64,000 nt of DNA, taken from positions 25,842-89,841 of IMG/VR virus record IMGVR_UViG_3300043774_001004; one strand, given 5' to 3'. The notes under the pieces were generated by a model. That model did no database searches, had not been told where the DNA came from, and saw nothing but the letters and a program-made list of their open reading frames with translations. Positions within the stretch are counted from its first letter, which is position 1. Every line of letters begins with the position of its first letter. Of this stretch, positions 1,666 through 52,278 are shown one piece after another. This stretch comes from a virus. Made by a program: the position numbers and the translations under genes.

Positions 1666-1706
1666 AACTAAACAAGTAATCTTAATATAAAAATAAAACA
1701 AATAAA

Positions 1707-2300: not shown

Positions 2301-2308
2301 TAATCTAG

Positions 2309-2812: not shown

Positions 2813-4026
2813 GTTTAAAGAAAGACTATAAAGAAATAATTAACAGAATCAATTCACTCAGAAGAATTGAATCATCAGGCGATCTAAATAAAAAGATTAA
2901 GAGAGTCGCAGTTATTCTTACTGGTTCACGTTCTGGTTCTAGTTTAATGAAAGCTGTAGTCTCAAAAAGTAATGATGTTGCATATCTTTCAGGTGAAGAA
3001 GAGCCATTTTTTATCTTAACAGGTAACGGCTTTCCATGGTCTAGTGACAGCGATGGCTTTAACACTATTAAGAATAAGCAAAAGCTTTTAGATAATCTAT
3101 TCGATGATCTAGGTATAAATGATAAGGTATTCAATCTCACGAAGACCCTACATGACTGGCGTAATCGTATACTGTTGCAATTTCCAGATGTCGATTCTGA
3201 TGTGATTGATTATCAGTTACCTAAGTATGTGTCTAAGTTTTATACAGAAGGCACAGACTATACTGAAGCAACACAAAAGATGTTGTTTACTACTTTCAAA
3301 GAAAGGGCAGGACTGTATGATATCTGTGACGGCAGCTATGATTTTATGCTTCAGAAATTCAAAATTGAAGAACCTCCTTTTGTAATCCCACCACAGCGTA
3401 GAAAATTTACAGAATCCGACATTGAAGACAAAGTCCTTGTATTCAAGACACCTCAAGACTGTTACAGAATAGGTATCTTTGAAGAGCTTTTTCCAAATGC
3501 GGATATCAAGTACATACATTTAACAAGAGGCTTTGCCCAAACAATCAATGGGCTTATGGATGGCTGGTTATCAGATACTGGCTTTTTTGCCCATGATGTT
3601 TCTATCATCAATGAGAAATTAAACATTGAAGGCTACTCTGATGTTAAACCTTATGGTAGCAAATGGTGGAAGTTTGACCTGCCTCCAAATTGGAAAGATT
3701 ATAAAGATGCCCCACTTCATGAGGTATGTTTAAATCAATGGCATTCTGCACATACGCATATCTTAAATTCAGGTAAGCAGGTATTGCATATTAGATTTGA
3801 GGATTTCTTAACTGATCCAAACACAACAGCAAATAAGATTACAGATTATCTTGGCATCAATCCTATCAAGATCGATCATATACCTGTAGTAATGGCAACA
3901 GAAAAGCCTGAACAGTTCAGATGGATGAAAAGAAGTGCGCTAATAAATGATCTTTCACAGAGAAAAGAGGTAAAAGAACTAATGGATGCGTTAAAATATA
4001 AAATGGAACCAGAGTTATGGGTGTAA
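2809..4026 (+). CDS. Sulfotransferase family protein
   Basis: A PAPS-dependent sulfotransferase-fold protein of 405 residues. The 5'-phosphosulfate loop is TGSRSGSSLM (38-47). The 3'-phosphate region is IKYIHLTRGFAQTINGL in the middle of the protein, and a late LHIRFEDFLTDP segment matches the RYEDL-type motif of the family. It is longer than typical bacterial members, with an insertion between the two PAPS motifs. It overlaps the previous gene by 4 bases and the next by 10. Two smaller sulfotransferases and an APS kinase elsewhere in the window suggest a sulfation pathway, though this copy sits among nucleotide genes. The acceptor is unknown. Confidence 0.8.
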   Translation: MSLKKDYKEIINRINSLRRIESSGDLNKKIKRVAVILTGSRSGSSLMKAVVSKSNDVAYLSGEEEPFFILTGNGFPWSSDSDGFNTIKNKQKLLDNLFDDLGINDKVFNLTKTLHDWRNRILLQFPDVDSDVIDYQLPKYVSKFYTEGTDYTEATQKMLFTTFKERAGLYDICDGSYDFMLQKFKIEEPPFVIPPQRRKFTESDIEDKVLVFKTPQDCYRIGIFEELFPNADIKYIHLTRGFAQTINGLMDGWLSDTGFFAHDVSIINEKLNIEGYSDVKPYGSKWWKFDLPPNWKDYKDAPLHEVCLNQWHSAHTHILNSGKQVLHIRFEDFLTDPNTTANKITDYLGINPIKIDHIPVVMATEKPEQFRWMKRSALINDLSQRKEVKELMDALKYKMEPELWV

Positions 4027-4997
4027 AAGAAACTAAAAATAAAAGATCTAAGAAAACAAAGGAACAAGAGTCTATTGATAAAGGCGTTGAGCTTTTACAT
4101 GATGTTCCTACTCAACCTCAGCCTGAAACTGAGGAAGAGCCAAATTATTTTAAATACGGATATACCAACGAGTACGATACACTCGTTGCAGCTATGATTC
4201 ATATTCCAAGAAGGAATGAGATTGAGTATTTCGATCCTAAAAAGGCCATGTACAAAAGCATTCCGAATTATGAAAAGCTTTTAGAAGAGGTTGATCAGTA
4301 CAGAACTCTTTTAATGAATCTGGGTATTCAGGTTTACGATGATGTGTATTTCCATGATACAGATTATAACCCATATCCTAACCAGATCTTTATGCGAGAT
4401 CTGGCAGTTATCACGCCAAATGCAATCATCTTAGCCAATCCTAAATACGATATTAGAAAAGGTGAAGAGAGAAACCTATTGGCAACAATGAGAAAATGGG
4501 GTTACTTTGGTCGTGTAATTGAACTTTCAAAAAATACGACAATGGAAGGTGCCGACTTTTTCTGGATATCTGAAAGTGAAGTCCTGGTATCAGTTGGTAA
4601 TAGAACTAGTGAAGATTTTGTAACAACATTTAAGTTCTTTTATCCAAATCTTAAAGTAACAGTTGTTGAAGCTGCTGCTGAAGGTATTCCTCAACATATC
4701 CTAGGTGGCGCACATATTGTTGATAAAGATACAATCATTCAACGCAAATCGATTGTAAAGCATGACCTTGGCTTCAAGAATACAATTTTACTTGAAGAAA
4801 CAGATGAGGTTGTTAATGGCTACGCAATGAATATCCTGACAGTAGGTCCAATGGAAATCATTATGCCATCTGGCAATCCGGAAACCAAGGCAATTTATGA
4901 ATCACATGGTATTAAAGTCCATGAAAGTCCAGCAAAGGAAATCGGTAAAATGGGAGGAGCCTTTGCCTGTATGACACTTCCAATGAAAAGAGGATAA
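4017..4997 (+). CDS. Arginine deiminase/amidinotransferase superfamily enzyme
   Basis: A guanidino-group-modifying enzyme of the pentein fold. Residues expected of the catalytic set are present: E177 in EGAD, H227 in PQHILGGAHIVD, and C318 in GGAFACMTLPM near the C-terminus; MRD (126-128) resembles the substrate-binding arginine/aspartate pair. The first ~45 residues are a charged, probably disordered extension. It could hydrolyse arginine to citrulline (deiminase), act on a methylated or other guanidino substrate, or transfer an amidino group; sequence alone does not decide. It overlaps the sulfotransferase gene and is followed after 2 bases by a hydroxymethylase-like gene. ArgG and ArgH at 47-50 kb could recycle citrulline to arginine. 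Confidence 0.78.
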   Translation: MGVKETKNKRSKKTKEQESIDKGVELLHDVPTQPQPETEEEPNYFKYGYTNEYDTLVAAMIHIPRRNEIEYFDPKKAMYKSIPNYEKLLEEVDQYRTLLMNLGIQVYDDVYFHDTDYNPYPNQIFMRDLAVITPNAIILANPKYDIRKGEERNLLATMRKWGYFGRVIELSKNTTMEGADFFWISESEVLVSVGNRTSEDFVTTFKFFYPNLKVTVVEAAAEGIPQHILGGAHIVDKDTIIQRKSIVKHDLGFKNTILLEETDEVVNGYAMNILTVGPMEIIMPSGNPETKAIYESHGIKVHESPAKEIGKMGGAFACMTLPMKRG

Positions 4998-4999
4998 TT

Positions 5000-5908
5000 A
5001 TGAAAATGAGTTTAAAGTACAATGAAGTTGAAAGTGCTGCAGCAGCATATCAATGGTTTTGTAAATTGATAAATGAAGAAGGTGATTATGTAACCAGCAG
5101 AGGTGAACAGACCAAAGAGGTTTTGAATGCTGGCGTTCTGATCAAGAATATCAGAGATCGTGTTATACCAATCTCTAACTTCAATGAACGTTTCATACTT
5201 CAAGAAACATACGATATCTTAAATGAAAATCAACCCAGGGTTATGCACTCTAAAGAGATGCTAGAAAAAACCATGGGTAATAGCAATAATATCATGTTCT
5301 TTGGTAATGAGATGCGTCAGGCTTTTAGCAGATGGTCGCTTCTTCGTATCAAAACTCTTTTTGAAAAAGATAAGTTCACAAGAAAGGCAATACTAGATTT
5401 AGGTAATAGAAGACCGATTGTGCATGCTCCATGTATGATTTACGCACATTTCATTATCAGAGACAATGCACTACACATGTTGGCTGAAACTAGGGGCACA
5501 GAAGTCTCCATGGGTTTTGTCAATGACATATATTTTTATACGATTATTCAAGAGCTGATGTACAATTGGCTTCTAGAAACCTATCCAGATCTTGAACTTG
5601 GAACTTTCTTATACAAAACTACATCACTTCATTATTTTACAAACAAGGATGGTGGCCCACTTTGGTCACAAGAGTTTATAGAATCTGATAGATCTGGTTA
5701 TATCATAACAGATTTGAAATATTGTGATTATATAGCCGAGATGGGAGTTTTATACCATTATGTCGATGCCTATATGAAAGCAGGTGAAAGAGAAGATGTC
5801 GATGCGGGTATAATTACAACATACAGAGACTTAAAGAATCCCGATTTTAATAATTTTAAGCAAGCTTTTTTCTATAATTGGGCAAAAATACTAACAACAG
5901 ATGAGTGA
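5000..5908 (+). CDS. Thymidylate synthase-fold protein (hydroxymethylase-like), copy 1
   Basis: A divergent thymidylate synthase/pyrimidine hydroxymethylase family member, 302 residues. The nucleophile is C145 in APCMIYAHF; R165 follows 20 residues later, exactly the family spacing; and the residue 11 after that Arg is D176 (FVNDIYFY), where thymidylate synthase has Asn. In T4 dCMP hydroxymethylase this Asn is Asp and confers cytosine preference, so dCMP is the more likely substrate than dUMP. The surrounding sequence is far from canonical (PCH became PCM), so it may have a new role. It overlaps the APH-like kinase gene by 8 bases and has a better-conserved paralogue at 6718. Confidence 0.78.
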   Translation: MKMSLKYNEVESAAAAYQWFCKLINEEGDYVTSRGEQTKEVLNAGVLIKNIRDRVIPISNFNERFILQETYDILNENQPRVMHSKEMLEKTMGNSNNIMFFGNEMRQAFSRWSLLRIKTLFEKDKFTRKAILDLGNRRPIVHAPCMIYAHFIIRDNALHMLAETRGTEVSMGFVNDIYFYTIIQELMYNWLLETYPDLELGTFLYKTTSLHYFTNKDGGPLWSQEFIESDRSGYIITDLKYCDYIAEMGVLYHYVDAYMKAGEREDVDAGIITTYRDLKNPDFNNFKQAFFYNWAKILTTDE

Positions 5909-6737
5909 TAAAGGCGGCAATACCAGTGCTTACAAAATTTACCATCAAGGTAAAATGAAATACTTTATCAAATCATTTCAGACAAATGGTTTTGATATCA
6001 GTAGCTTTACTTTTCAAAATTATCTCTACAATAATTTCAAATCAGATCTGAAGATCTGTAAGCCTATTAAGATAGTTTCTGAAAAGTCAAATGAGGTTCA
6101 AATCTATTATGAATATGTCAAGCCTATTGATTGGGAATTGACTGCAGACCGTGTTTCTTTCCTCGGTAAATCATTAGCAGAATTGCATAACTTCTGTTAC
6201 TTAAAGAAAAATGAAATTTCATTACCTGATAAAGTTGCAGTTGTTGCAATGGGTAAATGGCAAGATGTTGAAGATTCATTTGATAAAGAACTTGCAGTCA
6301 GTATCAGAAAGGCAATCTATGATAACTTAAAGCCTTATGATAGAGATCAGATACGCATTCCTCTTCATCGTGACTTTAAGTTACATAACATTATGTTTGA
6401 CGGTGAAAATCTTAATCTGATTGATTTTGATTTTGCAGCTATTGATAATATCGGCATAGAAATAATGTCGTTTATCATAGATTTTTACTATGAAACCAGG
6501 GATCAAAGTTTAGTATCTGATTTTATCAAAGCCTATAAACAAGAATCAAATCTTGACATAAATTGGACATCGGTACTAAATGACTATCTAGTCTATATGT
6601 GCGTTAATACATTTCCTTTCTATATGAGAGGTAGAATTGGAGAACATAACTTCAAGAACCTGCTTACTGAAAGAAATGGCAAACTAAATTTTACATACAT
6701 CAATAAAGATTTCTTATATGAGAGTTTACAGAGGTGA
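5901..6737 (+). CDS. APH-like small-molecule kinase
   Basis: A protein-kinase-like fold enzyme of the aminoglycoside phosphotransferase/choline kinase group, 278 residues. The catalytic loop is LHRDFKLHNIMFD, with H156, D158 and N163, and the metal-binding segment is LIDFDFA with D175 and D177. Such enzymes phosphorylate a hydroxyl on a small substrate using ATP. It is sandwiched, with overlaps on both sides (8 and 20 bases), between two thymidylate-synthase-fold genes, so all three are probably translated together. The inference is that it phosphorylates a hydroxymethyl pyrimidine or another intermediate of DNA-base modification; an antibiotic-resistance role is unlikely here. Confidence 0.75.
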   Translation: MSDKGGNTSAYKIYHQGKMKYFIKSFQTNGFDISSFTFQNYLYNNFKSDLKICKPIKIVSEKSNEVQIYYEYVKPIDWELTADRVSFLGKSLAELHNFCYLKKNEISLPDKVAVVAMGKWQDVEDSFDKELAVSIRKAIYDNLKPYDRDQIRIPLHRDFKLHNIMFDGENLNLIDFDFAAIDNIGIEIMSFIIDFYYETRDQSLVSDFIKAYKQESNLDINWTSVLNDYLVYMCVNTFPFYMRGRIGEHNFKNLLTERNGKLNFTYINKDFLYESLQR

Positions 6738-7590
6738 AACATTTGCAGAAGTTTATAGAAAATCACTTTGGGATCTAATTAACGATCCTGAGCATTCAGT
6801 GTCGCCACGTGGCATGAAAATCAATGAAGTGGTAAACGCAGTTCATGTCGTTGAAGATCCATCTTCTTGTCTTTACTATAATGAAAGACGTAGCAGCCAA
6901 TTGAAATATATTGCAGCAGAAACAGTTTATTACTTTGCTGGTCGTAGAGATCTTGGTTTTATCAAGAAGTTTGCCTCTTTCTGGGAACAGATTGCCAATA
7001 TTGACGCAACTGTCAATTCAGCTTATGGTAATCTAATCTTTACTGAGGTGAATAAGGCAGGTGTTACACAATGGGATTGGGCGTTTCAGTCTCTAGTTAA
7101 AGATAAAGATACTAGACAGGCTATTCTCCTGTTTAATAAGCCAGACTATCAATACTTTGGTAACAAAGACGTGATCTGTACCCTTAATGGTATCTTCAAC
7201 ATCAGAGATAATAAATTGAATTTCACAATTCAGATGCGTTCAAATGATGCCATTCTTGGAACTCCAACTGATTTTGCATTCTTCTGTTTATTACAAATGC
7301 AGATGCTAAAGCTTCTGAAAGAGAAAGCGTATCCTGAATTAGAACTGGGTACATTTACCCATATTGCAAATTCATATCACGTCTATGAAAGGCACTTTGG
7401 TCTAATACAAGACATGCTGTCTGGTTATTTTGAGCCATCTTCATTCGAGCCAATCAACGAAAACTTTATCAATTATGAAGGTAAACCTACTGCAGAATTT
7501 GAAAAGTTAACACATGCTGTTGAATATGGTACATCATACGAAACAGAAGATAAATTATTTAATTGGATATATGAAAAAGCAAGAATCTAA
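6718..7590 (+). CDS. Thymidylate synthase-family dCMP hydroxymethylase candidate, copy 2
   Basis: A well-conserved thymidylate synthase-fold enzyme of 290 residues. C154 is the nucleophile (VICTLNGIF), R174 starts the phosphate/substrate motif RSNDAILGTPTDFAFF, and D185 occupies the base-recognition position that is Asn in thymidylate synthase and Asp in T4 dCMP hydroxymethylase. The likely reaction is dCMP plus methylene-tetrahydrofolate giving 5-hydroxymethyl-dCMP. A late HIANSYHVYERH corresponds to the HxYxxH dUMP-binding segment. The gene begins inside the kinase gene and ends inside the phosphoesterase-like gene. A plain thymidylate synthase remains possible but the Asp argues against it. 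Confidence 0.85.
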   Translation: MRVYRGETFAEVYRKSLWDLINDPEHSVSPRGMKINEVVNAVHVVEDPSSCLYYNERRSSQLKYIAAETVYYFAGRRDLGFIKKFASFWEQIANIDATVNSAYGNLIFTEVNKAGVTQWDWAFQSLVKDKDTRQAILLFNKPDYQYFGNKDVICTLNGIFNIRDNKLNFTIQMRSNDAILGTPTDFAFFCLLQMQMLKLLKEKAYPELELGTFTHIANSYHVYERHFGLIQDMLSGYFEPSSFEPINENFINYEGKPTAEFEKLTHAVEYGTSYETEDKLFNWIYEKARI

Positions 7591-13618: not shown

Positions 13619-13633
13619 ACAAAGAGACTAGGA

Positions 13634-37928: not shown

Positions 37929-37955
37929 AGGCACCAATCTAGTTAAAGCACGAGA

Positions 37956-37962
37956 TATATAA
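37956..37962 (+). promoter_or_regulatory. Candidate promoter of homing endonuclease gene
   Basis: TATATAA followed by an A-rich leader lies 14 bases before the GTG start at 37977. It would give the inserted gene its own transcript. Confidence 0.35.
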
Positions 37963-37976
37963 AAATAAAAATTACC

Positions 37977-38651
37977 GTGTTTTCAATCTATTATTTAACA
38001 ACGGATGGCGAAGGTATTAAGTATATCGGATTAACTAAAAGAGAATTGTCGATAAGATTAAATGCACACATCAGTAAAGCTTTCAGAAGAAAAAAGCTAA
38101 ATAGAGCCCAGTCTTGGATAAAATCGAGGATTAAAATCGGCAAAAATATCCAAATAGTTAAAATAGAATCAGATATTAAAACAATTGAAGAGGCAAATGA
38201 ACGTGAAAAATATTGGATAAAGCACTATAAAAACACTGGAAATGATTTACTAAATAGCACAGAAGGTGGCGATTCAATAAAATCTTATTGGGACGGGCGT
38301 AAACAAACAAGAGAACATTCTGAAAAAATACGCGAAGCATTAACCGGTCGAAAACTGTCTGATAAGCATAAAGAAACAATGCGAAAAAACAGAATCGAAA
38401 AGATGGTAGGAAATAAAGAAGTTTTGTGTTTTAACCAACAAGGCGTTTTTTATAAAAAATTCAAATCATGCGGTAGAGCAGCTTCTGAATTAAAGATAGG
38501 AAGATCTTCTGTAATTAAATGTGCAAATGGCAATAAAAGGAGTTCTGGTGGTTACTTATTTAGATACATGTCTGAATTTGAAACTATTCCTGAGTTTATT
38601 GAAGTTCCAAAAAGAAATAATACACAACATATTGAAAGAGGAGAATCCTGA
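37977..38651 (+). CDS. GIY-YIG homing endonuclease
   Basis: A free-standing GIY-YIG nuclease of 224 residues with GTG start. The first strand pair is IYYL...KYIGLTKRELSIR with a catalytic Arg, and EREKYWIKHYKN supplies the metal-binding Glu region. The middle TREHSEKIREALTGRKLSDK is a NUMOD3-type DNA-binding repeat, and ASELKIGRSSVIKCANG near the end is a NUMOD1-like helix-turn-helix. It lies between kdsD and the DUF5522-like/kdsA pair, as an insertion would, and its end overlaps the next gene. No intron boundary is evident. Confidence 0.88.
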   Translation: MFSIYYLTTDGEGIKYIGLTKRELSIRLNAHISKAFRRKKLNRAQSWIKSRIKIGKNIQIVKIESDIKTIEEANEREKYWIKHYKNTGNDLLNSTEGGDSIKSYWDGRKQTREHSEKIREALTGRKLSDKHKETMRKNRIEKMVGNKEVLCFNQQGVFYKKFKSCGRAASELKIGRSSVIKCANGNKRSSGGYLFRYMSEFETIPEFIEVPKRNNTQHIERGES

Positions 38652-38784
38652 TTTTTACATAGAGAATGGCAAGTATATTATGACAGAATCTCTACATCTG
38701 AAAAGAGGTTTCTGCTGTGGAAACAAATGCAGACACTGTCCATATATCCCACTATACCAAAGGGGTAATACTAAAACAAAATGA
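38632..38784 (+). CDS. DUF5522-like small cysteine protein
   Basis: This is a 50-residue protein read from an in-frame TTG at 38632 (an ATG exists at 38680, but it would cut the conserved domain). NPDFYIENGKYIMTESLHLK followed by RGFCCGNKCRHCPY matches a short Bacteroidota family of unknown function (DUF5522) whose CCGN-CRHCPY cluster probably binds metal. The first codons overlap the homing endonuclease gene by 20 bases, so the original start may have been displaced by that insertion. It overlaps kdsA by 4 bases. Confidence 0.65.
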   Translation: MKEENPDFYIENGKYIMTESLHLKRGFCCGNKCRHCPYIPLYQRGNTKTK

Positions 38785-39554
38785 GCAAATTAAAACTTAT
38801 TGCTGGACCTTGTGTAGTCGAGGATAAAACACTTACTTACGACATAGCAGAGTATCTAAAAAATCTTGCAACAGAATTAGATATAGAGCTTATATTTAAA
38901 GCTTCATATAAAAAAGCAAACAGGACATCACTTGGCAGCTTTACTGGAATTAACGAAAGAGCTGCATTAAAAATCTTAGATGATGTTCGCAGATTCTATG
39001 AAATTCCTGTACTTACAGATGTACATGAAACCAGAGATTGTAGAATGGCTTCAGACCATGTTGATGTCTTACAGATACCTGCATTTTTGTGCCGACAGAC
39101 AGATTTATTATTGGCAGCAGGTAATACAGGTCTAACCGTAAATATCAAGAAAGGTCAATTCATGTCACCTGAGTCTATGAAATACGCTCAGGATAAAGTT
39201 AAATCTACTGGCAACAACAATGTTTGGGTTACAGAGCGAGGAACTACATTTGGCTATGAAAATCTAATAGTCGACATGACCAGTATTCCGAAAATGAGAA
39301 TTTTCAATGATAATGTGATTATGGATTGTACACATTCCGTTCAAAAGCCAAATCAACATGGCATTACAGGAGGTGATCCAAAAATGATTGAAACCATGGC
39401 CTTATCAGCTATAGCAGCTGGTGCCACTGGCCTCTTCATTGAAGTACACCCTGAACCCCAAAAGTCTAAAAGTGATGCAGGTTCTATTCTCCAGATAGAT
39501 AAACTTCATTCGATACTTGAAAAGTGTCTTAAAATTAGAAAAGCGTTATTATGA
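38781..39554 (+). CDS. kdsA: Kdo-8-phosphate synthase
   Basis: A 257-residue enzyme condensing arabinose-5-phosphate and phosphoenolpyruvate to Kdo-8-phosphate. LIAGPCVVED, FKASYKKANRTSLGSFTG, LTDVHE, LQIPAFLCRQTDLL, VNIKKGQFMSP and LFIEVHPEP are all family motifs. The Cys in GPCVVE, where E. coli has Asn, marks the metal-dependent class. It overlaps kdsB by 4 bases. A dedicated KdsC phosphatase is not evident, though HAD proteins are encoded nearby. Confidence 0.95.
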   Translation: MSKLKLIAGPCVVEDKTLTYDIAEYLKNLATELDIELIFKASYKKANRTSLGSFTGINERAALKILDDVRRFYEIPVLTDVHETRDCRMASDHVDVLQIPAFLCRQTDLLLAAGNTGLTVNIKKGQFMSPESMKYAQDKVKSTGNNNVWVTERGTTFGYENLIVDMTSIPKMRIFNDNVIMDCTHSVQKPNQHGITGGDPKMIETMALSAIAAGATGLFIEVHPEPQKSKSDAGSILQIDKLHSILEKCLKIRKALL

Positions 39555-40318
39555 AAATAGTCTGTGTTATACCAGCAAGATGGTCTTCTAGCCGACTTCC
39601 TGGTAAACCACTAGAAAAGATTGATGGTTTACCAATGATTGAATGGGTTTACAACGCAGTTTGGACCTCAATTGAAGAAAACCACCAATTAGTTGTTGCA
39701 ACCGATGACCATAGAATTTTTGACTATTGTAAAAGCAGAGGCATGAATGTAGTCATGACCTCCAGTGAACATTCAACAGGCACTGAACGTGTGATTGAGG
39801 TTTCTCAAATGCCAGAATATAAAAATGCAGATATCTATATCAATGTACAGGGCGATGAGCCTCTTTTAAAGTCTTCAGATATCAAAGGTATTATGATCGG
39901 CCTAGAAAACTGGGAAAAAATACACGGTCAAAATATAGTCGGCACTCTTTTGGCCAATCTATATAGAGAAGAGGCAATGGATAGAAACTGTGTCAAAGCA
40001 GTAGTCAAGCGAAATAATTCGCAAATCATTATGTTTACCAGGAGTGGCTTATATGATTATGATGCACAGGATGCTGATATTTTTAGAAGACACGTTGGTA
40101 TTTATGCATTTACAAAGAAAAGTCTTAAAAACATTTCTCGACTTAAGAATAAAACTAAAAACGAGAATGCTGAAAGCCTAGAGCAAATTAGATGGATGGA
40201 TCATGGCATCAAGCTTATTGGATCATATACAAATTCACATCTCATTTCAGTAGACACTGCAGCAGATCTTAAAAAAGTTAGAGAATATGTTAAAAAACAA
40301 AATCAAACAACTTCGTGA
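39551..40318 (+). CDS. kdsB: CMP-Kdo synthetase (3-deoxy-manno-octulosonate cytidylyltransferase)
   Basis: A 255-residue cytidylyltransferase that activates Kdo with CTP. PARWSSSRLPGKPL (residues 8-21) binds CTP, TDDHRIFDYC and TSSEHSTGTER match KdsB, YINVQGDEPLL carries the catalytic Asp region, and RRHVGIYAFTKKSL and SVDTAADL complete it. Together with kdsD and kdsA it makes CMP-Kdo available to a Kdo-type transferase, not recognised in this window. The next gene begins 32 bases before its stop. Confidence 0.94.
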   Translation: MKIVCVIPARWSSSRLPGKPLEKIDGLPMIEWVYNAVWTSIEENHQLVVATDDHRIFDYCKSRGMNVVMTSSEHSTGTERVIEVSQMPEYKNADIYINVQGDEPLLKSSDIKGIMIGLENWEKIHGQNIVGTLLANLYREEAMDRNCVKAVVKRNNSQIIMFTRSGLYDYDAQDADIFRRHVGIYAFTKKSLKNISRLKNKTKNENAESLEQIRWMDHGIKLIGSYTNSHLISVDTAADLKKVREYVKKQNQTTS

Positions 40319-40766
40319 GTTTAAACCGACTCTAGATAAGTTAAGACACGTTTTAAAGTCATTCAGTTACAGGGTCTATTCAACCTGTATCACAATTACA
40401 ATTGCGTATCTAGTTTCAGACGACCTTGAAAGGGCCATGTCAATCGGCGCAGTTGACTTCAGTGTTAAATTATTCACATACTATATCCATGAAAGGATTT
40501 GGTTTTATATCCCATTTGGTTTACAAAGACCTCGTAAAATACATTCAGAAATTTCTTGGGAACCTGACCCTGAATCTTGGACTCAGGTAGCTTTTATACA
40601 AAGTGAAAATGGCAAAATGAGAAAACGTGCTAAGATCTTAACAGATGGTCATGGCGATTACAGAGCCGTTTTATCTTCATACAATTCTGATACAAAGGCT
40701 CGCCATAACGATATAATAAGTGGTACTAAAGAAACTATTGAAAATAAATTAAACATCAAATTATAA
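40287..40766 (+). CDS. DUF2061 membrane protein
   Basis: A 159-residue protein with two short membrane helices in the first 75 residues. [20 protein letters not shown] and [18 protein letters not shown] are the DUF2061 signature. DUF2061 genes neighbour or fuse to APS kinase genes in many bacteria, and here it overlaps the cysC stop/start by one base. The C-terminal half is soluble and unfamiliar. A link with sulfate activation or transport is inferred from this recurrent association. Confidence 0.78.
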
Positions 40767-41719
40767 TGGCAGAAAATCTACATTGGCACGAACATACAGT
40801 GAGTCGTGAAGCAAAAGAAAAAACATTTAAACAAGAAGGTAAAGTCTTGTGGTTTACAGGTCTTTCAGGTTCTGGTAAATCAACTCTAGCAAATGCAACT
40901 GAACATAGTTTACATCAACTGGGTTATAAAACCATGGTTCTCGATGGTGACAACATCAGAATGGGACTTTGTAAAGATCTAGGCTTTTCAGATGCTGATC
41001 GTCAAGAAAACATTCGACGTATCGCCGAAGTTGCAAAACTGTTTGCTCAATCAGGAACTATTGTCTTGACTGCATTTATTTCACCATTTAGATCTGATAG
41101 AGATGCAGCCAGAGAAATCATCGGTGATGACTTCATTGAGATATTTGTAGATACGCCACTTGACGTGTGTGAACAAAGAGATCCTAAAGGTCTTTATAAA
41201 AAGGCAAGAGCCGGTCAGATTAAAGGCTTTACAGGTATTGACTCTCCATATGAAGCACCTCTAAAACCTGAGCTTAAAATTGATACAACCTTAAATGATA
41301 TCGATACATTGGCTGGAGGTATTGCAGCATATTACACAGTAAGGTTTGCAAATAAAGAGGTCAATAATCTCGATAAGCGTAAGACGGTTGCAATTGATTT
41401 TGACGGTGTAATTCATAAGTACTCACAGGGTTTCAAAGGTCTAGATAATGCCTATGACGAACCAATGGAAGGCACGTTCCAAGCACTTACTAAACTTAAG
41501 AGTCTTGGTTTCCAATTAAAGATCATGTCCAGTCGACCAGCACCTGTAATTGAGGAATGGTTAGAAAGATATGGCATGAGTGAACTTATCAGTGAAGTTT
41601 CTAATCATAAGTTTCCTGCAACCATATACATTGATGACAGAGGCTTTAAATTTGAGTCATGGGATCAAGTTGATGAGATTATCGAAATCATGAGTGAACA
41701 ATTAGAATTATCAAAATAA
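40766..41719 (+). CDS. cysC: APS kinase fused to HAD-like domain
   Basis: Residues 1-200 are adenylylsulfate kinase: Walker [14 protein letters not shown] (30-42), [32 protein letters not shown] and [12 protein letters not shown] are diagnostic. It makes PAPS, the donor for the three sulfotransferases in the window. Residues ~205-317 add a HAD-like domain with [21 protein letters not shown] and YIDDRGFKF. That fold is seen in phage phosphatases; a possible role is removal of 3'-phosphoadenosine phosphate or Kdo-8-phosphate, neither shown. APS itself must come from the host. Confidence 0.92.
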
Positions 41720-43207: not shown

Positions 43208-43242
43208 TCTGCAACTTACTTTTATTTTAGACTAAATGGTTG

Positions 43243-43251
43243 TATATTTAC
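43243..43251 (+). promoter_or_regulatory. Candidate promoter (TATATTTAC) of uvsE
   Basis: TATATTTAC ends 3 bases before the ATG at 43255. If it is a -7 element, transcription would start at or just after the ATG, giving a leaderless or near-leaderless message. Confidence 0.5.
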
Positions 43252-43254
43252 CAC

Positions 43255-44196
43255 ATGGAAAAATACAATCGTTATGGTTATGCTTGCATCAATGAAACAC
43301 TTGGCTGCAAAGGTATATCAGCTAATCGACGCATGATAAAAAAGACCTTTGATGCAAAGGGTCTAGACTATGTCAGCGAGCTGGTAATTGAAAATCTAAA
43401 AGACTTAAACAAGATATTGGCCTGGAATGCAGACCATGGTATCACCTTGTATCGCATCACCAGTGACCTATTTCCCTGGATGAGTGAATATGAAATCACT
43501 GAACTACCAAGGCAAAATGAAATCAGACAACTTCTTATTGACTGCGGTTCTACTGCTAATCTCACAGGTCAGCGTCTAACTATGCATCCTGGCCCATTTA
43601 ATGTGCTTGGTTCTCCAGAAGAATCTGCAGTTAAGAAAACTGTCAAAGAACTTAATCAACATGCTCAAATTCTAGATCTAATGGGTCTGGAGTCCAGTTA
43701 TTACTATCCAGTAAACATTCATGTCGGCGGTACATATAATTCAAAAGAAGATACAATGGATCGCTTTTGTACAAATTTCCAAAGACTCAGTGAATCTGCA
43801 AAAAGGCGACTGGTTGTTGAAAACGATGATCGTGGATCTATGTACAATGTCAAAGACCTTTACGACGGTCTATATCAAATCATTGGTATTCCAATTACAT
43901 TCGACTTCCATCACCACAGATTTAACACAGGCGGCTTAACAGAAGAAGAGGCCCTGAAACTGGCTTCAGAAACCTGGCCAGTAAAGCAACTGGTCCATTA
44001 TTCAAGTTGTAAGAAAACATTTGAAGACCCATCATCTAAACCACAGGCACATGCCGACTGGGTTTACGAAAAGGTAAAAACATATGGTCTGCGGTTAGAC
44101 ATCGAGCTCGAGGCAAAAGCAAAGGAACTTGCAGTCCTTGATTATTTCCGCCGAGAAAATTGTAAAATGCTACTTAAAGAATACATAGAACTATGA
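43255..44196 (+). CDS. uvsE: UV damage endonuclease (UvsE/UVDE)
   Basis: A TIM-barrel nuclease of 313 residues that nicks DNA 5' of UV photoproducts. YGYACINETLGCKG opens the barrel; YRITSDLFPW, RLTMHPGPFNVLGS, VNIHVGGTYNSKED, LVVENDDRGSMY, ITFDFHHHRFN and AHADWVY carry the metal-binding His, Glu and Asp residues in family order. The ATG at 43255 is preferred over the upstream TTG at 43240. It lets the phage repair sunlight damage independently of host photolyase or excision repair. It overlaps the next gene by 4 bases. Confidence 0.94.
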   Translation: MEKYNRYGYACINETLGCKGISANRRMIKKTFDAKGLDYVSELVIENLKDLNKILAWNADHGITLYRITSDLFPWMSEYEITELPRQNEIRQLLIDCGSTANLTGQRLTMHPGPFNVLGSPEESAVKKTVKELNQHAQILDLMGLESSYYYPVNIHVGGTYNSKEDTMDRFCTNFQRLSESAKRRLVVENDDRGSMYNVKDLYDGLYQIIGIPITFDFHHHRFNTGGLTEEEALKLASETWPVKQLVHYSSCKKTFEDPSSKPQAHADWVYEKVKTYGLRLDIELEAKAKELAVLDYFRRENCKMLLKEYIEL

Positions 44197-44857: not shown

Positions 44858-45300
44858 CTATTAGAAAATGTGAATTTAAGAATGACTGGATGGTAATGAT
44901 GGTCGACGAATCAGACCTGTCATATCCCACGTTTAAAAATTTATTTGAACATATGGGTCTTGCATTTGCAGATCTTGAAAATAAATTTATTGTTCTTGAT
45001 GGCAAAGAGATTAAAAATCAAAATTTGTCCAAAGATCATATTTCTGCAATAGAAGCCCATGAAATCGGTCATTTTATATCAGACCATGTCGGAGTGATAA
45101 ATAAATCATTAGAAAGGCTTGAGAAAGAAGCCGATTGGGCAGGACATCAAATCTTACTTAAATATAAAAAGACAAAGGCTGCTAAACTATTAGCAGAACG
45201 TTTTAAAGACAAGTATGAGGCTGAAATAACCGAGTACGATGTAAGCGGAACTGAAAGATATAAAATACAGAATTTCCTAAATGAAGTTAAAAACATTTGA
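44854..45300 (+). CDS. Putative zinc metallopeptidase (HEIGH zincin)
   Basis: A 148-residue protein with the zinc motif H69-E-I-G-H73 in AIEAHEIGHFISDH and a downstream E92-A-D94 in LEKEADWAGHQIL, the gluzincin arrangement (HExxH plus ExxxD). It resembles small ImmA/IrrE-like or M48-like peptidases. There is no signal peptide, so it acts in the cytoplasm or in the particle. The neighbours are leader-tagged enzymes; cleavage of host regulators or of virion proteins is conceivable. It overlaps the next gene by 20 bases. Confidence 0.75.
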   Translation: MTIRKCEFKNDWMVMMVDESDLSYPTFKNLFEHMGLAFADLENKFIVLDGKEIKNQNLSKDHISAIEAHEIGHFISDHVGVINKSLERLEKEADWAGHQILLKYKKTKAAKLLAERFKDKYEAEITEYDVSGTERYKIQNFLNEVKNI

Positions 45301-46228
45301 GCAATTTGTTCTTGAAAACATGCAAGAACAAAACGATTTTAAAAAAATATACATTGCCCTAGACGATGATGATCTTCAGGGTGATGACTTTACATATAAG
45401 AAGTTTTGTAGTTCTAATTTTTTCACACCACTGACCAAGTCAACAACTGACCTTGATCCAAACATGCCGATTTTGAATTACTCAAATGATACAATCAATC
45501 ATTTCTGGGAAAAAATCAAAAAGGACAACGTCTACAACCTACCTAAATACTCAGAAGAGGTTAGCAAGAAAGAAAGATTTCATCAAATAGTGGGTCAACA
45601 TGAGAATGTGCCACTTTCTGTATTCACAAAAAATCATGCCCTACAATATCTTAAGTTTCCTGTAATTGCAAAGCCAAGTGATAACCATAGTGGACTAGGT
45701 ATTCAGGTCTTTAAAAAGGCTGAAGAACTTCAGGACAGTGGTGAAGACTTTGCAGTGTACTCAGAATTTGTAGATAAGAAAGAAGAGCATAGATTTATGA
45801 TCTTTAATGGTCAGCTTATAGCCTGGATGGAAAGAAAGCCTCTTAACCAAAAGGCAAAAACTGGAGATGGTGATAAGGATGGTGAAATGGATTTTGCCTA
45901 TGAATATAAAATGGATGAGCAACTACCAACTGAATATGAAGAGGTGGTTAAGAAGTTTATAGTTCTATTTCCAGATCTACCCTATATGACACTAGATGTG
46001 ATGAAAGGCGTAGATGATAAAGTTTATATAATTGAAATCAATTCTAAGGCAGGTATGCCATTTGATATTACAATAAAGCTTTATAAAAACATCTTTGAAG
46101 ATTTCTATGGAAGAAAGATTGATCCAGAATCAGATAAAAATCTAGAGATGATGGCTACTGAGCTTAAGCAAAAGACGCTTGAAAAAGAAAAAGGTAAATT
46201 TACAATAAAAGATGCTTCTAAGGTATAG
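45281..46228 (+). CDS. Leader-tagged ATP-grasp ligase
   Basis: A 315-residue protein that starts MKLKTFEQFVLENM, the virion-type leader with FVLE as site. The body is an ATP-grasp fold like RimK: FPVIAKPSDNHSGLGIQVF for nucleotide binding, EHRFMIFNGQLIAW in the middle, and YMTLDVMKG followed by VYIIEINSKAGMP for the metal-binding Glu/Asn. ATP-grasp ligases join a carboxylate to an amine or thiol. The substrate is unknown. The leader implies that the enzyme may be packaged and delivered with DNA. It overlaps both neighbours. Confidence 0.82.
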   Translation: MKLKTFEQFVLENMQEQNDFKKIYIALDDDDLQGDDFTYKKFCSSNFFTPLTKSTTDLDPNMPILNYSNDTINHFWEKIKKDNVYNLPKYSEEVSKKERFHQIVGQHENVPLSVFTKNHALQYLKFPVIAKPSDNHSGLGIQVFKKAEELQDSGEDFAVYSEFVDKKEEHRFMIFNGQLIAWMERKPLNQKAKTGDGDKDGEMDFAYEYKMDEQLPTEYEEVVKKFIVLFPDLPYMTLDVMKGVDDKVYIIEINSKAGMPFDITIKLYKNIFEDFYGRKIDPESDKNLEMMATELKQKTLEKEKGKFTIKDASKV

Positions 46229-46796
46229 TCAATTCATATCAGAAAAATGGTCAGGTGATAGCATCACGATTTTTGATGTCGATGATACACTGGTTTTAAC
46301 AAGTGCTAAAATCAAAGTACATGACCCATTTACGGGTAAAAATTATGAGATGACACCCAAAGAGTATAATGAATATGAAAGGGATCCTGATCATATTCTA
46401 GATTTTAGTGACTTTACAAATCCAGATGTCCTAAAGGCAGGAAGGATAATTGACTGGGTTATGAATGTTCTTAAAAAGACAATGGCAGTTGAAAGAGCCG
46501 TTGGTATCATTACAGCACGTGATAGTAAAGAATTGATATTAGACTTTTTGAACCATCATGATGTAAGAATCAATCCAGATTTTATTTTTGCGGTTAACAG
46601 CCCTGGTGAAGGGTACGAGGGTAGTAATGCCGAAAGAAAACAACAGGCATTTGAAAAGCTCATCGATATGGGATTCAGGAATTTCAAATTCTTCGACGAT
46701 GATGCAGAAAACTTACGTTTAGCCAAGGAACTTGAGAAGAAGTACGACATAAAAATGTTGACAAGACAAGTTCGTAAACAGTTTCCTAATGATTAA
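46212..46796 (+). CDS. Leader-tagged HAD phosphatase
   Basis: A 194-residue protein starting MLLRYSQFISEKW (leader with FISE), then ITIFDVDDTLVLTS, the HAD nucleophile motif DxD, VGIITARDS for motif II, and FKFFDDDAENL for the acidic motif IV. It resembles the phosphatase half of phage polynucleotide kinases or related HAD enzymes; no P-loop kinase domain is present. It overlaps its neighbours by 17 and 8 bases. Confidence 0.8.
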   Translation: MLLRYSQFISEKWSGDSITIFDVDDTLVLTSAKIKVHDPFTGKNYEMTPKEYNEYERDPDHILDFSDFTNPDVLKAGRIIDWVMNVLKKTMAVERAVGIITARDSKELILDFLNHHDVRINPDFIFAVNSPGEGYEGSNAERKQQAFEKLIDMGFRNFKFFDDDAENLRLAKELEKKYDIKMLTRQVRKQFPND

Positions 46797-47370
46797 AAAT
46801 TTCGGTCAGTTTCTTAATGAAAACGACGTCGATGCCAGAATTTTCTGTGACATGGATGGGGTTTTATGCGATTTCGATAAAGCTTTTAAATCTTCAAACG
46901 ATGACGGGTTAAGCTTTGAGGAATACGATAAAGTAAATGGTAAAGGCTCAGGATGGGCTATTATCTCAAAACAGGGTGAAGGCTACTGGTCTAATCTAGA
47001 ATGGATGTCAGATGGCAAAGAACTCTGGGACTATCTAAATACTATTTCAGCACCTACTATTCTATCTTCACCCAGTCGTGAATATAGTAGCATCAAGGGT
47101 AAAATGAAATGGATCAATGCCAATCTGGGTATTTCACAAGATACACCAACTACAAAAAGCAAAGATTGGGACAAATCTACCAGAATTATTCTCAGTTCAC
47201 ATAAACATTTATATGTTTTGCCAGACCCAAATGTTAAGTCAATCCTGATCGATGATACACAATCTAAGATCGATAAATGGACAGAGGCTGGTGGCATAGG
47301 TATTTTACATACCAATACAGTTGATACAATTTCAAAGCTTCAGGATATAATCAAACAATATGGAATATAA
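46789..47370 (+). CDS. Leader-tagged HAD 5'-nucleotidase-like protein
   Basis: A 193-residue protein starting MIKNFGQFLNENDVDARIF, where FLNE is a textbook leader site, followed at once by FCDMDGVLCDFDKAF, the DxDG nucleophile of the NT5C-type HAD family. ILSSPSREYSSI is motif II, and SILIDDTQSKIDKW is motif IV. It may dephosphorylate nucleotides. Removal of the leader would leave the catalytic domain starting only a few residues before the nucleophile strand. The argG gene begins 11 bases before its stop. Confidence 0.82.
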   Translation: MIKNFGQFLNENDVDARIFCDMDGVLCDFDKAFKSSNDDGLSFEEYDKVNGKGSGWAIISKQGEGYWSNLEWMSDGKELWDYLNTISAPTILSSPSREYSSIKGKMKWINANLGISQDTPTTKSKDWDKSTRIILSSHKHLYVLPDPNVKSILIDDTQSKIDKWTEAGGIGILHTNTVDTISKLQDIIKQYGI

Positions 47371-48607
47371 AAAGATCGCATCATACGAAGCCCAAGAGGG
47401 TAGCTTCGATAAGGTTCTTCTACTTTATTCAGGAGGGCTGGACACATCCGTTATGTTAAAATGGATTCAGGATAAGTATAACGCTGAGGTTTATGCCCTT
47501 TGTGTTGATATTGGTCAACGTGAAGATTTTGAACCAATTGTCGATAAGGCAATTAAACTAGGAGCTAAAAAATGTGAAGTAGCCAGAGTCGAAAACAAGT
47601 ATGCAATGCTTCAATTAAATGAGGCAATCATGTTTAATGCCGACTATGAAGATGGCTACCACCTGTTCTGTCCTCTTGGTCGAATTGCTATTGCATATAC
47701 TGCAGTTGAATATGCCAGAAAATGGGGTATCAATGTGGTTGCTCATGGAGCAACTGGAAAAGGAAATGACCAGATTCGTTTTGATAACTACATTACTACA
47801 CTGGCTCCTGATATTAAAATCTTGGCTCCAGTTAGAGAATGGGCAATGGGACGTGAAGAAGAGATTGCTTATGCACAAGAACATAACATACCTGTTACAG
47901 CCAGTCTAGAGAAGATTTATAGTTATGATGAAAATCTTTGGGGTTGCTCAGCTGAAGGCGGTGAAATTGAAGATTTTAAGAAAGTGCCACAACTGGATAG
48001 AATTTTGAAATTCACTAAGCTACCTGAAGACTCTATCGACGAGGTAGAATATATTGATATTACGTTCAGTTCAGGTATGCCAATGCTTATAAGTGGCGGA
48101 GAAGATGGTGAAGTAATCATGGATGGTACAACAGCCAGTATAATTAAGAAAGCAAATCACCTGGGCAGAAAGCATGGTATTGGAATTACACATCTTGTTG
48201 AGGACAGGGTAATTGGTCTTAAAGTAAGAGGTGTATATGAGGAACCTGGTGCTGAAATCTTAGTTAAAGCCCATAAAGCACTTGAGAAAACAGTTTGTAC
48301 TAGAGAAGAGATACTTTTCAAAGAACAGGTTGATCGTCAATGGTCACAGTTGGTTTATGAAGGTCGATATTATCATCCCCTAATGGATTCACTGAGAGGC
48401 TTTACACGTGAAATGAATAGTAAAGTTGAAGGTGTTGTTACAATGCGACTATACAAAGGTCGATGTGAAGCTGTAGCCATTACTTCTAAATTTTCTCTAA
48501 ATAATGAGAACTCATCATTTATGAAAGACAACTTTAATCAAAACGCAAGTGCTGGCTTTATTGAGCACTTCGGATATACACAAAGAATCGCATATAATTT
48601 AAAATGA
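47360..48607 (+). CDS. argG: Argininosuccinate synthase
   Basis: A full-length enzyme of 415 residues that condenses citrulline and aspartate using ATP. LLLYSGGLDTSVMLKW is the PP-motif of N-type ATP pyrophosphatases, and AHGATGKGNDQIRFD and LEKIYSYDENLWG are family hallmarks. It overlaps the leader-tagged HAD gene by 11 bases and argH by 4 (ATGA), so it belongs to the same phage unit and is not a chance host fragment. Arginine biosynthesis genes are rare in phages. The citrulline could come from the deiminase-like enzyme at 4017. Confidence 0.95.
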   Translation: MEYKKIASYEAQEGSFDKVLLLYSGGLDTSVMLKWIQDKYNAEVYALCVDIGQREDFEPIVDKAIKLGAKKCEVARVENKYAMLQLNEAIMFNADYEDGYHLFCPLGRIAIAYTAVEYARKWGINVVAHGATGKGNDQIRFDNYITTLAPDIKILAPVREWAMGREEEIAYAQEHNIPVTASLEKIYSYDENLWGCSAEGGEIEDFKKVPQLDRILKFTKLPEDSIDEVEYIDITFSSGMPMLISGGEDGEVIMDGTTASIIKKANHLGRKHGIGITHLVEDRVIGLKVRGVYEEPGAEILVKAHKALEKTVCTREEILFKEQVDRQWSQLVYEGRYYHPLMDSLRGFTREMNSKVEGVVTMRLYKGRCEAVAITSKFSLNNENSSFMKDNFNQNASAGFIEHFGYTQRIAYNLK

Positions 48608-49842
48608 GTAAAATCTGGCAAAAAAACAACCAGTTAGATAGAGATGCAGAAATCTTCTGTAGCTTTACCACTGGCAATGATTATCAATTAGACGATGTTT
48701 ATTTTCTAAAACATGACATCGATGCCAGCATTGTTTGGGTTCAGGCCCTGTTGCAGTGTGGTATTTACAATAATGAAGAGGCAGCCAAAGTAATTGATGA
48801 ACTTCTCCGTATACAAATAGATCATGAACAGGGTGACTTTCATGTTCGACAAAGTGATGAAGACTGTCATACTGCAATTGAAAAAAGGCTTATCGAGATG
48901 ACCGGGGAGCTTGGTAAGAAGATTCATACAGGTCGAAGCAGGAATGATCAGTCATTGACCATGATCAGACTATTCATGAAAGACACACTTACTGAAATCA
49001 TAGGTGACGCAAGTACATTGAATTTGGAAATAAGTGAAAGATTTAATGAATGGTTTGATCAGGTCTTCATCGGCTATTCACATACACAACAGGCAATGCC
49101 TATTACCGTAGGTCACTACTTCATGGCATTTAAAGAATCTCTCCTAGACGATATTTCAAATATCATTTCAACTCATAATCATATCAATCTTTGCCCATTG
49201 GGTACAGGAGCCGGTTTTGGTACACCTCTAGATATAAACAGAGATTTTATTGCAGCAGCACTGGGTTTCAGAGAGGTACAAAACAATAGTCTGTACTGCC
49301 AAAATAGTAGAGGCAAGTTCGAGTTATTATACATACAGTCTCTGATGCAGGTCATGCTTACACTACAGCGACTGGCGTCAGATATGGTGTTATACACTTC
49401 TAGAGAGTATAGCCTGTTTAAGATGTCTGATAGTCTTTCACAAGGTAGCAGTATGATGCCACAGAAAAAGAACCCAGATGTCTTTGAAATAATCAGGGCA
49501 AAAGCCGCAGATGTTATGGCGCTTGAGGAACGGGTTAAGTTTATCATTAAGGGTTTGCCAAGTGGGTATAACAGAGATCTACAAGAAATAAAAGCCTGCA
49601 TTGTTGATGCCTATAATATCACTAAAAACTGTATCTATGTTACAAAGCTGGCTATCAAACATATTGAGCCAAATCCAGAAATGATAGAAAAGAGACTGGA
49701 AAAAGATATAGTGGCCACAGATTATGTCATCAGTAAATGTATGAATGAGCCAGATCTTAATTTCAGAGACTTATACAATGAAATCATGAATGGTGAAATT
49801 AACATGTCAGTTTCAGATGCTGTAAAGCTTAGAATAGGCTAA
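48604..49842 (+). CDS. argH: Argininosuccinate lyase
   Basis: A 412-residue member of the fumarase/aspartase superfamily that splits argininosuccinate to arginine and fumarate. DEDCHTAIEKRLIE, IHTGRSRNDQSLTMIRLF and the signature GSSMMPQKKNPD with the flexible catalytic serine loop are intact. It is slightly shorter than typical enzymes (about 450), mainly at the C-terminus. It is co-translated with argG and followed by a TATATA box. Confidence 0.95.
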   Translation: MSKIWQKNNQLDRDAEIFCSFTTGNDYQLDDVYFLKHDIDASIVWVQALLQCGIYNNEEAAKVIDELLRIQIDHEQGDFHVRQSDEDCHTAIEKRLIEMTGELGKKIHTGRSRNDQSLTMIRLFMKDTLTEIIGDASTLNLEISERFNEWFDQVFIGYSHTQQAMPITVGHYFMAFKESLLDDISNIISTHNHINLCPLGTGAGFGTPLDINRDFIAAALGFREVQNNSLYCQNSRGKFELLYIQSLMQVMLTLQRLASDMVLYTSREYSLFKMSDSLSQGSSMMPQKKNPDVFEIIRAKAADVMALEERVKFIIKGLPSGYNRDLQEIKACIVDAYNITKNCIYVTKLAIKHIEPNPEMIEKRLEKDIVATDYVISKCMNEPDLNFRDLYNEIMNGEINMSVSDAVKLRIG

Positions 49843-51025: not shown

Positions 51026-51760
51026 ATGCTAAATGATTATTTCAACAGACTTATTGTTTTCGATATCGAAACTGCAAGTGAGTGCGAAACACTCGATCAC
51101 TTAATGGACGAGAAAGGCCCACATAAAGTGGAGCTTTGGAGAAAGCGCTGTACTTGGCTCAGAAACAGATATCCTGAGAACGCAAATCTTACAGATGACC
51201 AGCTTTATGTAGAAAAGGCGGCATTACAACCAGAATTTTCTAAAATTATCTGCATCAGTATTGCTCAGATTAAAGGCGATGGTGAATCCATTGTAATTAA
51301 GAGTTATGCAGGCCATGATGAAAAGGAAATCTTGACCGATTTTGTAAAATTGAATGCAAATATACTCGGTAAAATTCCTGGTGCCACATACTGCGGCCAT
51401 AATATAAAAAGATTTGATGTGCCCTTTATTGCAAAACGATTAGCAATCAACGGTATTCAGATTCCTACTAACTTCCAGATCTTCAAAATGAAAAGCTGGG
51501 AAATACCATTTATGGACACTGGTGACATCTGGTCTTTTGGAGCTTGGCAAGAGGGCTTCTCTTCTCTAGATCTTATTTGTGAATGCCTTGGTGTCCCAAC
51601 ACCTAAAAATAAAATGGAAGGCAAGGATGTAGGACCTGCATATTTTTCAGGTAAGCTGGATGAGATTAAAACATATTGCGAAAAGGACGTAGAGGCAACA
51701 TGTCGTGTTATTTTGAAGCTCAGTCATATTGATAAAAACCCATTTGTGGAAAGAAAGTGA
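51026..51760 (+). CDS. DEDD-family 3'-5' exonuclease (PolB-exonuclease-like)
   Basis: A 244-residue RNase H-fold exonuclease. The Exo I motif is LIVFDIETASE, Exo II lies in TYCGHNIKRFDVPFIAKRL, and Exo III in IKTYCEKDVEATCRV has the Tyr of DEDDy enzymes. The closest group is the predicted exonuclease related to DNA polymerase B proofreading domains. It may proofread or trim DNA ends. ATG 51026 is preferred over 50984, which lies in the terminator tail. Its stop overlaps the IF-3 start (GTGA). Confidence 0.86.
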   Translation: MLNDYFNRLIVFDIETASECETLDHLMDEKGPHKVELWRKRCTWLRNRYPENANLTDDQLYVEKAALQPEFSKIICISIAQIKGDGESIVIKSYAGHDEKEILTDFVKLNANILGKIPGATYCGHNIKRFDVPFIAKRLAINGIQIPTNFQIFKMKSWEIPFMDTGDIWSFGAWQEGFSSLDLICECLGVPTPKNKMEGKDVGPAYFSGKLDEIKTYCEKDVEATCRVILKLSHIDKNPFVERK

Positions 51761-52278
51761 AAAAGCAAAAATTTACAGTAAACAACCGTACAAACTACCA
51801 GATTACTGCTAAAGAGGTTCGAGTTACCGGCGAAGGTATCGAAAGTAGAATCTTAAGTACGAAAGAAGCAATTACAATCGCAGAAGATATGGGCTTAGAC
51901 CTTATCGAAATTGCGGCCAATGCGAATCCGCCTGTTTGTAAAATACAGGAATTTAGTAAGTTCGTGTATGAAAAGAAACTACAGGATAAGCAAAATAAAA
52001 AGAACAGAACTGAATTAAAGGAGGTTCAGCTATCTCCGGTTATTTCAGACCATGATCTCAAGACAAAGGCTAAAGCAGCCTGTGGCTTCTTAGATAAAGG
52101 TGATAAGGTTAAAGTGTGTATGCTTTTCAGAGGTCGCCAGAATGCCCACAGGGAATTTGGAAGTACTATTATGCTTAAGTTTATGGACTTAACAGAGGAA
52201 TTTGGTACAATAGAAAGTGAGCCAAAATTCGAAGGCAATAAAATGATTGCCATGTTCAAGCCGAAAAAAAAGCAATAA
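51757..52278 (+). CDS. infC: Translation initiation factor IF-3
   Basis: A complete IF-3 of 173 residues with GTG start. The N-domain (about 1-75) has VNNRTNYQITAKEVRV, LSTKEAITIAEDMGLDLIEI and NPPVCKI; the C-domain (about 83-173) has KEVQLSPVISDHDLKTKAKA, KGDKVKVCMLFRGRQNAH and a basic tail. IF-3 binds the 30S subunit and controls start-codon selection. A phage copy could bias initiation to phage messages, which here lack Shine-Dalgarno sequences and use several TTG/GTG starts. It is followed by a hairpin terminator. Confidence 0.95.
   Translation: MKKQKFTVNNRTNYQITAKEVRVTGEGIESRILSTKEAITIAEDMGLDLIEIAANANPPVCKIQEFSKFVYEKKLQDKQNKKNRTELKEVQLSPVISDHDLKTKAKAACGFLDKGDKVKVCMLFRGRQNAHREFGSTIMLKFMDLTEEFGTIESEPKFEGNKMIAMFKPKKKQ

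Follow-up and report, generated by a model that had tools for sequence, protein, structure and literature searches.

A CPR-type argininosuccinate synthase and lyase gene pair in a contractile-tailed phage and two further phage contigs

The phage genome described here carries two adjacent genes that are predicted to encode a complete argininosuccinate synthase (ArgG) and a complete argininosuccinate lyase (ArgH), and the pair has been maintained in two or more separate phage lines. Among the sampled genomes, the two proteins are nearest in sequence to an ArgG-ArgH lineage that occurs in members of the Patescibacteria (CPR) as well as in a few Bacteroidota. The best explanation, which we consider probable, is that the phage enzymes raise the supply of arginine from host citrulline and aspartate during infection.

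The window is the whole stretch of DNA that was analysed, 64,000 bases corresponding to bases 25842-89841 of an 89,841-base IMG/VR record (IMGVR_UViG_3300043774_001004). This 89.8-kb record is assigned to a contractile-tailed phage because it has genes for a terminase large subunit, a tail sheath, a tail tube, a clamp loader, an exonuclease and an endolysin. The features discussed below are collected in Table 1.

Table 1. Position in the window and supporting evidence of argG, argH, their upstream neighbours and the genes of the pentein cassette
Feature	Position	Strand	Evidence
argG, predicted argininosuccinate synthase, CPR-type, 415 aa	47360..48607	+	Pfam, NCBIfam equivalog, PDB relatives, ligand residues, tree, dN/dS
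argH, predicted argininosuccinate lyase, 412 aa	48604..49842	+	Pfam, NCBIfam equivalog, PDB relatives, catalytic motifs, tree, dN/dS
HAD-type 5'(3')-deoxyribonucleotidase-like; overlaps argG by 11 bp; 78% in second phage	46789..47370	+	phrog_2643 E 4.8e-20, synteny
HAD-like (polynucleotide kinase-like), same conserved cluster as argG-argH	46212..46796	+	phrog_415 E 6.8e-7, synteny
ATP-grasp-like ligase, same conserved cluster as argG-argH	45281..46228	+	Pfam matches weak, below curated cut-offs; phrog_2599 E 2.4e-9; synteny
Pentein-fold (ADI/DDAH superfamily) enzyme, DDAH-like	4017..4997	+	PF02274, curated models, PDB relatives, motif, cassette conservation
Thymidylate-synthase homologue 1, Cys146 kept, Asp177; pentein cassette	5000..5908	+	phrog_5131, residue check
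Thymidylate-synthase homologue 2, probable dCMP methyl/hydroxymethyltransferase, Asp177, Thr147; pentein cassette	6718..7590	+	PF00303, residue check

ArgG matches PF00764 (HUP, E 6.5e-52) and PF20979 (E 8.8e-58), with nearly full coverage of the profiles, and scores above the NCBIfam equivalog cut-offs of PRK00509 (425.8 against 334 bits) and TIGR00032 (382.4 against 268.2 bits). ArgH matches Lyase_1, of the fumarase superfamily (PF00206, E 5.4e-51), and passes the equivalog cut-off of TIGR00838 (309.4 against 279.5 bits). For both proteins, the alignment with PDB relatives spans most of the length. Comparison with the Thermus enzyme shows that every checked ATP, aspartate and citrulline residue is retained in the phage ArgG except Thr88/Ser89; the equivalents of Arg124, Ser173, Ser182, Glu258 and Tyr270, which hold citrulline, are all present. 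Thr88 and Ser89 are replaced by Cys and Pro in all three phage ArgGs, but this loop also varies in a solved mycobacterial ArgG, which has Ser/Ala there. In ArgH, the catalytic His160 lies in the motif HTQQAMP, Ser282/283 lie in GSSMMPQKKNP (the GSSxMPxKxN loop), and the substrate residues Tyr322, Gln327 and Lys330 are found in GYNRDLQEIK. The roles given to the ArgG ligand residues (UniProt annotation) and to the ArgH residues are those that we take to hold across the two families. The initial annotation, which described both enzymes as intact by motif, is thus borne out, since the equivalog cut-offs are passed and nearly all catalytic and ligand residues are present. By family membership, the two phage proteins would be a functional argininosuccinate synthase and a functional argininosuccinate lyase.

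argH overlaps argG by 4 bp. The same annotation considered the pair to be linked in translation to its phage neighbours, upstream as well as downstream: this holds upstream, where a HAD gene and argG overlap by 11 bp, but the downstream gene starts 28 bp past the end of argH. A motif that resembles the capsid-targeting sequences of T4 ('K.FE.FhxE'-like) is present at the N-terminus of 13 of the 114 proteins of the record, when 0.5 are expected from shuffling (e.g., those encoded at 45281, 46212, 46789, 49871 and 50170). The three genes directly before argG carry this tag, argG and argH do not. ArgG has an N-terminal extension of about 14 residues (YxKxASxEA...), which is common to its CPR relatives; a capsid-targeting function of this extension was ruled out on the grounds that the CPR relatives have it too.

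Motif scans for ArgG and ArgH, which covered 2.9 million viral contigs of IMG/VR, turned up the pair in just two more phage contigs. In the first (IMGVR_UViG_3300032270_001137, 53,567 bp, hereafter the second phage), ArgG and ArgH are 78% and 64% identical to those of the window, and synteny extends over about 28 kb: in both contigs the order is ATP-grasp gene, two HAD genes, argG and argH, followed by a shared set of downstream genes. The initial annotation had raised the question of a chimera at this site. The contig is not chimeric there, as shown by the identical gene order in the second phage, and contamination is likewise ruled out by this synteny and by the occurrence of the pair in another phage line. 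Between the two syntenic phages, dN and dS are 0.15 and 1.55 for ArgG, and 0.29 and 1.61 for ArgH. Both genes are under purifying selection, although the dN/dS ratios are only approximate because dS is near saturation. About 2 kb downstream of argH, the window (51757-52278) encodes a complete translation initiation factor IF-3 with both Pfam domains, which the second phage keeps at 82% identity.

The other contig (IMGVR_UViG_3300017708_002539, hereafter L010) is a fragment of 20,902 bp from an otherwise unrelated phage, whose ArgG and ArgH are 59% and 45% identical to those of the window. The gene order is an Asp177 thymidylate-synthase homologue, argG (with a 4-bp overlap), argH, dUTPase and DNA polymerase B, the last of these assigned by eye; RecA, a DnaB-like helicase, ribonucleotide reductase and GroES-like/GroEL are further neighbours. 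The GroES-like and GroEL (Cpn60) genes of this unrelated phage lie at 13508-15407 of its contig. Another IMG/VR contig with an ArgG of 35% identity was rejected as a further phage case: its ArgG groups with the canonical enzymes, it has no ArgH, and it resembles host DNA at the edge of a prophage. No genuine phage match to the pair was found among 50,697 phage records, in which the ArgG matches are unannotated fragments or records that resemble host DNA.

Maximum-likelihood trees were built from 70 ArgG and 65 ArgH rows. The three phages form one clade in each (support 100/99 in both cases), within a 99/95 group that holds six CPR rows in the ArgG tree, and within a 97/95 group that holds four CPR genomes (G351, G086, G072 and G260) in the ArgH tree; clade membership is counted among the matches listed, and is to be read as "at least", and further members may lie in phyla beyond Patescibacteria and Bacteroidota. 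The Patescibacteria genomes G351, G086 and G072 neighbour the phage clade in both trees, which shows that argG and argH travelled as one unit. The pair must also have resided in phages for a time sufficient for the divergence of phages that are otherwise unrelated. ArgG matches were found in 34 of the 380 Patescibacteria genomes sampled, and about 26 of these are of the phage type (40-56% identity), while 13 of the 396 Bacteroidota genomes sampled have a related type (52-54%), the rest being canonical (about 42% or less); these are the two phyla that were sampled in depth. Phylogeny had been proposed at the outset as a way to find the donor. The nearest sampled relatives are Patescibacteria in both trees, and the transfer between phages and CPR may have taken either direction. 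The ArgG and ArgH trees rule out that the genes were captured recently from the Bacteroidota pathway of the usual type. A plasmid origin is also rejected, the best plasmid ArgG being just 41% identical.

In Bacteroidota and Microgenomates, the relatives adjoin a carbamoyltransferase of the OTC/ATC family, a neighbourhood in keeping with arginine synthesis. An OTC/ATC-family gene, but no ADI-family gene, occurs in the nearest CPR genomes. In one Saccharibacteria genome (L016, 2875-5421), an arginine-dihydrolase/DDAH-like gene comes after the gene for an ArgG that carries a fused MGS-like domain, and an arginine cycle is possible in this member of the CPR.

The likeliest role of the pair is the one that the initial annotation had listed as keeping arginine available. 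The phage would produce its own synthase and lyase during infection; ArgG would convert host citrulline, aspartate and ATP into argininosuccinate, which ArgH would split into arginine and fumarate, and the two final reactions of the arginine pathway would so be raised above the capacity or the control of the host. That citrulline is the substrate, and net arginine supply the benefit, is what we infer from the sequences. Neither an ornithine nor an aspartate carbamoyltransferase was detected in the phage record, which may be incomplete, by a search that recovered 14 of 14 positive controls. The host, or else some other reaction, must therefore supply the citrulline, the host being the probable source. 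The arginine made by the phage could be used for protein synthesis, polyamines or the modification of DNA bases. The polyamines of Bacteroidota are made largely from arginine. In L010, the thymidylate-synthase homologue directly before the pair could point to a more specific role, and draws attention to DNA modification among these uses. Considering that a separate phage line has the pair, and that the nearest relatives are of CPR type, this looks like a real, if rare, phage route to arginine supply.

The window also encodes a protein of the pentein superfamily (PF02274, 65.4 against a cut-off of 22.8 bits), whose C-terminal catalytic cysteine (Cys318) is invariant in the phage proteins compared. 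It had been described as a deiminase-fold enzyme, which is correct for the superfamily and does not extend to arginine deiminase proper. Indeed, it scores below the curated cut-offs of arginine deiminase (arcA; 56.5 vs 489.1 bits for TIGR01078, 56.1 vs 414 for NF002381), of DDAH (52.5 vs 340 and 50.3 vs 450 bits) and of arginine dihydrolase (26 vs 450 bits); its nearest PDB relatives by sequence are DDAH enzymes. It has His227-Ile-Leu, as do all three phage proteins, in place of His-x-Asp, the pair holding the guanidinium that we take to be the mark of arginine deiminases. A canonical arginine deiminase is ruled out by the cut-offs and by the absence of His-x-Asp. Two predictions of the structure (mean pLDDT 35.5 and 44.9) were too poor for a fold search.

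The pentein gene is located about 43 kb from argG-argH, in a cassette (window 1177-7590) that is kept in three related phage records, that of the window and two others. The order is guanylate-kinase-like gene, conserved gene, dTMP-kinase-like gene, sulfotransferase-like gene, pentein enzyme, thymidylate-synthase homologue 1, APH-like kinase and thymidylate-synthase homologue 2. All six thymidylate-synthase homologues of the cassettes have Asp177 with Thr or Met at position 147, and so does the homologue next to argG in L010. Asp177 together with a changed, non-His residue 147 is the mark of the thymidylate-synthase homologues of phages with modified cytosine (PMC8670742). Based on this match, the cassette is probably a cytosine modification pathway of which the pentein enzyme is a part, and the latter probably belongs to a system separate from argG-argH. 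The third contig with a pentein gene (3300028553_000043) is uninformative on ArgG-ArgH because it ends before the syntenic site.

The two systems might nevertheless be connected. It is possible, although rather unlikely, that the pentein enzyme and the two Asp177 homologues build an arginine-derived modified cytosine, the pentein enzyme acting as an amidinotransferase or as another guanidine-handling enzyme, and that ArgG-ArgH regenerate the donor. The gene order of L010, the position of the pentein gene between the sulfotransferase-like gene and thymidylate-synthase homologue 1 in the window and in the two related records, and the published mark of modified-cytosine phages are consistent with this proposal. 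However, 43 kb separate the two loci in the window, the L010 contig, a fragment of 20.9 kb, shows no pentein gene, and the pentein enzyme is assigned at the level of the superfamily, its predicted model being too poor for use. The more precise version, in which arginine from ArgG-ArgH gives a guanidino or arginyl group that the pentein enzyme and the Asp177 homologues place on cytosine, is doubtful; it would define an undescribed class of hypermodified DNA bases, and we know of no arginine-derived DNA base. We give little credence to the citrulline-arginine cycle suggested in the initial annotation, in which the pentein enzyme would convert arginine into citrulline and ammonia and ArgG-ArgH would rebuild arginine, for a net conversion of aspartate into fumarate and ammonia at the cost of ATP. 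The pentein gene and argG-argH do occur in one genome, the metagenome of the second phage (3300032270) also has a contig with a pentein gene, and the Saccharibacteria genome mentioned above associates an ArgG relative with an arginine-dihydrolase/DDAH-like gene. But the pentein enzyme is far from the ADI, DDAH and arginine dihydrolase cut-offs and has His-Ile-Leu, its gene is tied to a distant nucleotide cassette, the record has no carbamoyltransferase, an ADI-family gene is absent from the closest CPR relatives, and such a cycle would be futile and consume ATP. The proposal is therefore unsupported.

The change of Ser89 to Pro in the citrulline pocket makes it conceivable that the phage ArgG uses a related ureido substrate. 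A pair repurposed for a ureido compound other than citrulline is very unlikely, even if the Cys/Pro loop is common to the three phage ArgGs and the gene partners are unusual (an ATP-grasp and two HAD genes in one line, a thymidylate-synthase homologue in the other): the other citrulline-holding residues are retained, the equivalog cut-offs are passed, and the cellular relatives adjoin carbamoyltransferases. That the genes do nothing in the phage, being host-derived passengers or an artefact of assembly, is the least credible of all. The ArgG matches filed as phage in the public collection would fit this explanation, but synteny in an independent contig, the second phage line and purifying selection argue against it, synteny and selection refuting it for practical purposes. 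The base composition also argues against it: the GC contents of argG and argH, each about 1 standard deviation above the mean of the phage's own genes, are near the range of these genes; at third positions, GC is average in argG and high by about 2 standard deviations in argH. Supply of arginine by the pair is the most likely reading.

Other genes of the record deserve mention. SIS-domain isomerase, DAHP-synthase-family (KDO-8-P-synthase-like) and cytidylyltransferase genes at 37329-40318 of the window form a possible phage pathway for KDO or a related acid sugar; the syntenic second phage lacks counterparts of the latter two. A UvdE-type UV damage endonuclease is encoded at 43240-44196. An adenylylsulfate kinase gene (40766-41719) and the sulfotransferase-like gene (2809-4026) are found in one phage, and may serve to sulfate a component of the phage or of its host.

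Many auxiliary metabolic genes are known in phages, but none of the 50,697 records was a convincing case of an annotated phage that carries both ArgG and ArgH complete, and the literature searched, whose coverage was incomplete, did not describe any phage lineage in which ArgG and ArgH form a clade of their own. A study of vent viromes mentions both enzymes solely as steps of microbial aspartate metabolism (PMC5513705). The skin vOTU S27C7391 is a contig called viral with argC, argD, otc, argG, argH and argR, named by KO search (PMC11549919). It resembles the present case in having argG and argH on a contig called viral, but the genes form an arg operon with its own regulator, and the contig may be host DNA carrying a host arg operon, whereas here the pair stands alone amid phage genes and is kept across phages. 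The cyanobacterial ornithine-ammonia cycle, which involves the arginine dihydrolase ArgZ, also brings ArgG and ArgH together with a pentein enzyme in a single genome; the phage pentein protein differs by its low score on the arginine dihydrolase model, and the phage record by the absence of a carbamoyltransferase.

The canonical argG and argH of bacteria, such as those of most Bacteroidota, belong to the same families as the phage pair and have the same catalytic motifs, but they are at best about 42% (ArgG) and 34% (ArgH) identical to it and form a separate, fully supported branch. The CPR enzymes are closer. CPR ArgG (TIGR00032/PRK00509) is up to 56% identical to phage ArgG, shares its N-terminal extension and sits on the same tree branch; many CPR enzymes, however, have a C-terminal extension (MGS-like, PF02142, in the one tested) that the phage ArgGs lack, and the Thr88/Ser89 loop is Cys/Pro in the latter. 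CPR ArgH (TIGR00838) is up to 43% identical to phage ArgH and comes from the same genomes as the nearest ArgG, but the phage ArgH evolves faster, with an identity of just 64% between the two syntenic phages. The pair leads to a claim that can be tested, namely that the supply of arginine is what limits these infections, and its link with cytosine-type thymidylate-synthase genes is a concrete lead on the use of this arginine. The position of the phage clade beside the CPR enzymes documents a gene unit that is shared by tailed phages and the ultra-small CPR lineage.
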